Shown here: piece by piece, positions 3,274-3,660 of the stretch | Layout: each line of letters begins with the position of its first letter | Numbering within the stretch: position 1 is the stretch's first letter | Assembly (NCBI GenBank): GCA_009779205.1 | Contig: WRER01000078.1 | Coordinates: forward strand, 1 to 5,476 | Source: Methanobacteriota archaeon | GTDB lineage: Archaea; Halobacteriota; Methanomicrobia; Methanomicrobiales; Methanospirillaceae | DNA length: 5,476 nt | Reading direction: 5' to 3' | The notes under the pieces: model-generated | What the model was told of the DNA's origin: nothing | Database searches by the model: none | The model's input: only the letters and a program-made list of their open reading frames with translations | Program-made: the position numbers and the translations under genes

Positions 3274-3591
3274 TTACAGATATCCATTCTTTTGGAGCCA
3301 CTCAACCTGAGGTCGTGTGTACCGATATATGATATCTGCCTTTTCATCCTGGAAGCTCCAGGGAACGACAATAAGGATGTCACCCTCACGAATCCAGACT
3401 TTTTTCTTTATTTTGCCTTTGATTCGTCCCATTCGGGTTACACCATCAACGCACTTCACTCTGATATGATTTGCTCCCATCATGAGATCTGCAAAGCCAA
3501 AAATCTCACCTTCACGAGTATTTGGTAATTTTACCCGGATAATCTCTTCTCCTGCGTTAGAAGATCCGGAATTAAATGAATTATATGCCAG
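3274..3591 (-). CDS. Translation initiation factor aIF1A (eIF-1A), apparent CTG start
   Basis: aIF1A binds the small ribosomal subunit near the A site and, with aIF1, aids mRNA/tRNA recruitment and start-site choice. The product is 105 residues from the CTG, the family's usual length. It has a flexible Asn/Ser/Gly-rich N-tail (2-14), then the OB fold beginning EEIIRVKLPN (15-24), continuing through MMGANHIRVKCVDGVTRMGRI (37-57) and KKVWIREGDILIVVPW (63-78), and the C-terminal helix signature FQDEKADIIYRYTRPQVEWL (80-99). The first in-frame ATG (3483) would delete the first OB strand. No in-frame ATG, GTG or TTG exists between it and the stop at 3609-3607. The CTG at 3591-3589 sits 8 bases after AGGAG and gives (M)AYNSFNSSG, so I chose it. 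Alternatives are another non-standard start or a base error at this spot. The gene follows the DUF5654 gene by 131 bases and has its own TATA candidate. Confidence 0.93.
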   Translation of the reverse strand: MAYNSFNSGSSNAGEEIIRVKLPNTREGEIFGFADLMMGANHIRVKCVDGVTRMGRIKGKIKKKVWIREGDILIVVPWSFQDEKADIIYRYTRPQVEWLQKNGYL

Positions 3592-3599
3592 TACATCAA

Positions 3600-3604
3600 C
3601 TCCT
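3600..3604 (-). promoter_or_regulatory. Ribosome binding site deciding the aIF1A start
   Basis: On the minus strand, AGGAG (3604 to 3600, within GCAGGAG) is 8 bases before the CTG at 3591 and only 3 bases before an out-of-frame ATG at 3596. The spacing favours initiation at the CTG. The site is embedded in a five-codon mini-ORF (3613-3596, M-I-S-R-S) whose TGA overlaps the out-of-frame ATG as TGATG. Confidence 0.6.
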
Positions 3605-3640
3605 GCTTATCATGCAAGTTGCTATTATTTTTAACCCTCC

Positions 3641-3660
3641 ATGTATATATGTTTATACAT
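3641..3660 (-). promoter_or_regulatory. Candidate aIF1A promoter with overlapping inverted repeat
   Basis: The minus strand reads TATAAACATATATA across 3657-3644, giving overlapping TATA-like boxes. Transcription would start near 3622-3630, leaving a leader of about 30-40 bases. The same bases carry perfect 7-base arms ATGTATA (3641-3647) and TATACAT (3654-3660) with a 6-base spacer. A protein bound to this repeat would occlude the TATA box. Confidence 0.4.

Follow-up and report, generated by a model that had tools for sequence, protein, structure and literature searches.

A near-cognate start codon on the archaeal aIF1A gene, its conservation in Methanomicrobia and its possible link to start-codon stringency

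The aIF1A locus and its start region

The window, that is, the whole stretch of 5,476 nucleotides analyzed here, is one contig of a 252-contig assembly that is 62% complete. Its relatives place it in the order Methanomicrobiales. It encodes a helicase-like protein at 2-1768 (DEAD and Helicase_C in Pfam), Mtd, an enzyme of methanogenesis (1997-2839; NF002162), aIF1A, and an amidohydrolase (5300-4002) whose best match, PRK06038, lies below its cut-off. Upstream of aIF1A, and like it on the minus strand, is a DUF5654 protein of 78 residues (3959-3723; Pfam).

The aIF1A frame extends from 3609 to 3274 on the minus strand. It is bounded upstream by an in-frame TAA (3607-3609, minus strand), ends with the stop codon at 3276-3274 on the same strand, and its translation over 3274-3609 (minus strand), directly after the stop (*), begins with AGVDVLAYNSFNSGSSNAGEEIIRVKLPN. 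In-frame codon reading bears out the claim of the initial annotation that the frame is free of ATG, GTG and TTG as far as the ATG at 3483 (3481-3483, minus strand), which is its first in-frame ATG. The coding sequence is predicted to begin at the CTG at 3589-3591 (minus strand), where relatives have a near-cognate codon in the same register, and to occupy 3274-3591 on that strand, with 105 codons and a stop; this start was derived from conservation in relatives. The product scores 137 bits with TIGR00523 (cut-off 102.9) and 73.3 bits with PF01176 (cut-off 30.2), and is thus a member of the aIF1A family by both models. Because the match exceeds the family cut-off, the protein body can be regarded as intact.

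The signals preceding the CTG were also read from the sequence. The Shine-Dalgarno (SD) sequence GGAGTTGAT occupies 3595-3603 (minus strand), and its GGAG (3603-3600, minus strand) is followed by eight bases and then by the CTG at 3591-3589, which is the spacing that had been noted earlier. The SD consensus over 146 Methanomicrobia aIF1A loci is ..A.GGAGTTGATT.A. Between the SD sequence and the CTG lies an ATG (3594-3596, minus strand) that is out of frame, as had likewise been claimed; it opens a frame of 21 codons and is not kept in relatives reading GGAGTTGATTAACTG. On inspection, the TATA-like stretch CATATATACA (3642-3651, minus strand) is a possible archaeal promoter element. A scan limited to bacterial-type promoters and terminators returned nothing above chance. 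In a search for an mRNA hairpin at the aIF1A start, the 66-base region folded no better than shuffled sequences (z 0.73).

Start codons of aIF1A and of control genes in relatives

The loci used for comparison are the best-scoring hits together with chosen places rather than a random draw, and include 147 distinct aIF1A loci in the class Methanomicrobia. The set was extended to second and third copies and to loci of the phylum at large, which were read as well. Starts were located with a 16-base motif that was seeded with the SD consensus and trained on upstream bases only, and is blind to codon and frame. The search took in all frames and each position out to 108 bases ahead of strand 1. Two simpler SD scores were dropped in favor of the trained motif, as they placed many starts off by at least one codon because the coding sequence is purine-rich; as an example, random codons took the place of 111/247 picks of the CTG-to-ATC type in some groups.

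In Methanomicrobia, the motif search used 146 loci, one having been dropped for too little upstream sequence. The motif falls in the reading phase of aIF1A in 126 of the 137 confident loci, where one third is expected by chance, and all 126 in-phase motifs are open to strand 1. The codon at the motif end is CTG in 87 of these loci, ATT in 22, ATA in 7, ATC in 5, ATG in 4 and ACT in 1, so that CTG, ATT, ATA or ATC is found in 121/126. In the 11 out-of-phase loci the same GGAG recurs, and its distance to an in-frame CTG or ATT is longer by one or two bases. When one or two bases of slack in the spacing are allowed, the 147 loci yield CTG 93, ATT 30, ATA 7, ATC 5 and ATG 4; of the rest, one is misplaced (L003, ACT, with a CTG downstream) and seven remain without a call. 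The non-standard aIF1A start proposed in the initial annotation is upheld well beyond the window: 135 of the 140 called Methanomicrobia loci (147 examined) have a predicted start codon outside ATG, GTG and TTG.

The same start anatomy recurs among Methanomicrobiales relatives as GGAGTTGATnnnCTG in many loci, as GGAGTTGTCTGA-ATT in Methanoregula records, and as GGAGTTGATCGA-ATA and GGAGTTGTTGGC-ATC in other aIF1A loci of the order. Isolates that share it include Methanogenium cariaci, Methanogenium marinum, Methanoculleus sediminis, and Methanocalculus species. An in-frame stop directly precedes the start in 39 near-cognate loci. Among the 135 near-cognate Methanomicrobia loci, the open frame is free of ATG, GTG and TTG all the way to strand 1 in 70, and in 120 none of the three follows the near-cognate codon. 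The other 65 copies contain some such codon in the open frame, mostly upstream, and an SD core precedes only 7 of the 117 upstream standard codons in these frames. At least one aIF1A copy with a near-cognate start is present in each of the 25 listed multi-copy Methanomicrobia genomes (25/25). A search of the 62% complete assembly to which the window belongs returned no second aIF1A.

Among the other non-haloarchaeal loci of the phylum, 76 were used and 64 were confident, with the motif in phase in 62/64. The codon at the end of these 62 motifs is CTG in 49, TTG in 10 and ATG in 3; with spacing slack, the 76 loci give CTG 50, TTG 14, ATG 4, one misplaced (L221) and seven without a call. Two of the loci without a motif call, L251 and L268, have probable ATG starts as judged by eye. 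Sequence comparison strongly supports near-cognate starts behind a strong SD sequence as the rule for aIF1A in Methanomicrobia, and equally supports their being common in most of the other phylum branches sampled. Haloarchaeal aIF1A belongs to the same family, and most of the haloarchaeal genomes searched have two copies of it, but its starts are ATG or GTG and lack a conserved SD sequence. In each of the 24 haloarchaeal loci (24/24), an ATG or GTG lies no more than 25 codons ahead of strand 1; in most haloarchaea one copy type has ATG and the other GTG (L252-L279).

The codon appears to be conserved as a start and not as a residue. Among 157 Leu-type starts, 143 are CTG and 14 are TTG, and none is CTC, CTT, CTA or TTA, the four codons that make up 60% of the 1238 Leu codons within the bodies of these genes; a conserved leucine at this position is ruled out by their absence. 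Each of the seven start codons seen is either AUG itself or a single base away from it. A quick tree gives at least 16 codon changes, two of them between AUG and non-AUG, counts that carry no probability, as the sequences are related and not independent. The initiator tRNA presumably reads the near-cognate aIF1A codons as Met.

A strong SD core (GGAG, GGGG or GAGG) precedes 135/136 of the non-ATG Methanomicrobia copies versus 0/4 of the ATG copies. This pattern, which rests on four related extra copies, suggests a trade between SD strength and codon strength. ATG starts were seen in these four Methanomicrobia extra copies and in four loci of one genus elsewhere (L154, L155, L163, and L164), and the latter, unlike the former, retain a strong SD sequence. 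In the extra copies L186, L190, L197, and L204, the GGAG is replaced by GCAG, GTAG, GTAG, and AAAG, respectively.

Control genes were read in the same class. The start of aIF1 is ATG in 30/30 Methanomicrobia loci read (61 genomes searched), and that of aIF2-beta is ATG, at the expected place, in 30/30. Mtd starts with ATG in 21/30 loci and with GTG in 9/30. For aIF2-alpha, the motif gave ATG at 26 of 30 loci and the remaining 4 have Met at the expected place. For aIF6, the motif gave ATG at 17 loci; of the remaining 13, 12 have Met there and one start was not seen (29/29 read). No CTG, ATT, ATA or ATC start occurs among the aIF1, Mtd, aIF2-alpha, aIF2-beta, and aIF6 control loci read. A second outlier is aIF2-gamma, likewise a start-selection factor, whose starts, read by eye, are TTG in 23, GTG in 6 and ATG in 1 of 30 class loci (L340-L369). 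A conserved AAGGAGG precedes the aIF2-gamma start in Methanomicrobia, and across 30 phylum genomes (L460-L489) its starts are mixed and often TTG.

Start-codon stringency as a possible regulator of aIF1A

Several known systems offer a basis for comparison. Autoregulation of bacterial IF3 is described as acting through an ATT start in E. coli and an ATC start in Streptomyces (PMC5472188). The IF3 gene, infC, resembles aIF1A in being the gene of a start-selection factor with a non-canonical start, and ATT, ATA and ATC also occur on aIF1A. Participation in start selection follows for aIF1A from its family and from the reported role of e/aIF1A, which occupies the A site and contributes to this process (PMC6412873), and a conserved start outside ATG, GTG and TTG is present in 135/140 called Methanomicrobia loci. 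However, aIF1A is a member of the IF1/eIF1A family and uses mostly CTG; its NCBIfam and Pfam matches are to eIF-1A/IF-1 only, and none is to the IF3 family. Moreover, feedback is shown for IF3, while for aIF1A it is proposed. Eukaryotic eIF1, a factor of start selection under negative feedback, is likewise reported to be held back by a weak start site (PMC6237735), but it keeps an AUG in poor context, whereas the archaeal weak start sits on the partner aIF1A. The weak codon was not found on the archaeal SUI1 gene itself, as aIF1 has ATG in 30/30 loci, a comparison that concerns the codon only. In Streptomyces, the GTC start of sigR is described as repressed by IF3 and as sensing initiation stringency (PMC5472188), although sigR is no initiation factor.

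Translation of aIF1A probably starts at the CTG at 3591-3589, a near-cognate start that is kept across the class and would likely lower output at high stringency. By analogy with the AUU of bacterial IF3, the conserved near-cognate start most likely ties aIF1A synthesis to start-codon stringency. In such a mechanism, the combination of a strong SD sequence and a weak codon would make codon recognition the limiting step for the aIF1A mRNA. Because this is the step at which aIF1A would act, its synthesis should report stringency. With enough aIF1A present, together with aIF1 and aIF2, the gene's own start would be rejected, while a shortage would allow this start to be accepted more readily. The outcome would be a homeostatic loop resembling that of bacterial IF3.

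The sign of the feedback requires some care. In PMC6237735, direct evidence of discrimination against non-AUG starts by an archaeal factor is given for aIF1, aIF1 and aIF1A together make the initiation complex more dynamic, and aIF1A alone moderately steadies the initiator tRNA. Since aIF1A alone steadied the initiator tRNA and dynamics rose with aIF1, the feedback could have the opposite sign or depend on aIF1. It also speaks against self-feedback that the factor shown there to discriminate against non-AUG starts is aIF1, whose gene starts with ATG. Negative feedback appears to be the likeliest form, with constant low output and sensing of aIF1 as live rivals.

A weak start generally reduces output. 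The near-cognate codon may thus merely hold aIF1A low at all times, without feedback, and the weaker starts of aIF2-gamma in the same class (TTG 23, GTG 6, ATG 1 of 30) fit such a role. This reading is considered rather unlikely: a weak SD sequence would be the simpler way to reduce output, yet a strong one stands beside the weak codon in 135/136 non-ATG copies, and codons outside ATG, GTG and TTG are rare, with none in the control genes read. About equally improbable is the reading in which the weak start senses aIF1 or aIF2 instead of aIF1A, which would then be a downstream target following overall stringency. It draws on the ATG start of aIF1 in 30/30 loci and on the reported destabilization by aIF1 of complexes on non-AUG mRNA (PMC6237735), but the strong link between the weak codon and aIF1A fits self-control at least as well.

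Explanations that deny the near-cognate start altogether carry much less weight. The out-of-frame ATG at 3596, or the TTG within GGAGTTG that is common in the class, could serve as a start near the SD sequence in combination with a frameshift, or initiation at the internal ATG at 3483 could yield a shorter protein. This is very improbable: neither out-of-frame codon is shared with lineages reading GGTGATnnnCTG or GGTGTTnnnCTG, whereas the in-frame near-cognate codon is, and initiation at 3483 would remove the conserved first OB-fold strand (EEIIRVKLPN). An out-of-frame start with a frameshift was rejected, as no such start is common to different lineages. The initial annotation had also allowed for a base error, or for loss of the start in one of several paralogues. 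An error, frameshift or decay in a metagenome-assembled genome whose true start is ATG would be conceivable for an assembly of 252 contigs that is 62% complete, but is hardly credible when the feature is present in complete genomes and in named isolates across the class (among them Methanogenium cariaci, Methanogenium marinum, and Methanoculleus sediminis) and the protein has an intact body that scores over the family cut-off. Decay of this copy is likewise rejected by comparison with relatives, and the case in which all relatives start with ATG was not found on comparing their loci. As a general account, base error is already refuted by the relatives.

Beyond the feedback on aIF1A, a broader and more tentative proposal can be made. 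Most non-haloarchaeal Halobacteriota might possess a start-codon thermostat that operates via near-cognate starts on aIF1A (CUG, AUU, AUA, AUC, or UUG), with UUG or GUG on aIF2-gamma as a second, milder output, and that keeps the stringency of initiation constant. It might represent a third independent invention, after bacterial IF3 and eukaryotic eIF1, and one based on a different factor.

Significance and database annotation of the aIF1A N-terminus

If this picture is true, all three domains set start accuracy via a poor start on a start-selection factor, each with a different factor, and AUU, AUA, AUC, and CUG are conserved start codons in archaea. The reviews consulted name AUG, GUG, and UUG (PMC7531240), and no published report of a non-AUG aIF1A start was found in the open-licence literature searched. 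A prediction would also follow for the genetically tractable Methanosarcina, in which one codon change should lead to loss of control.

There are practical consequences for annotation as well. Gene callers limited to ATG, GTG, and TTG lengthen or shorten aIF1A. Several NCBI protein records begin at the CTG without comment, including P0051 and P0053, which match L040 and L022 by sequence. The placing of the aIF1A N-terminus varies between databases, from the CTG in some NCBI records to an upstream Met, Val or Leu codon in other sources. Among 120 listed homologues (P0001-P0120), the predicted N-termini differ by tens of residues, and the first residue is M in 95, L in 13 and V in 12.
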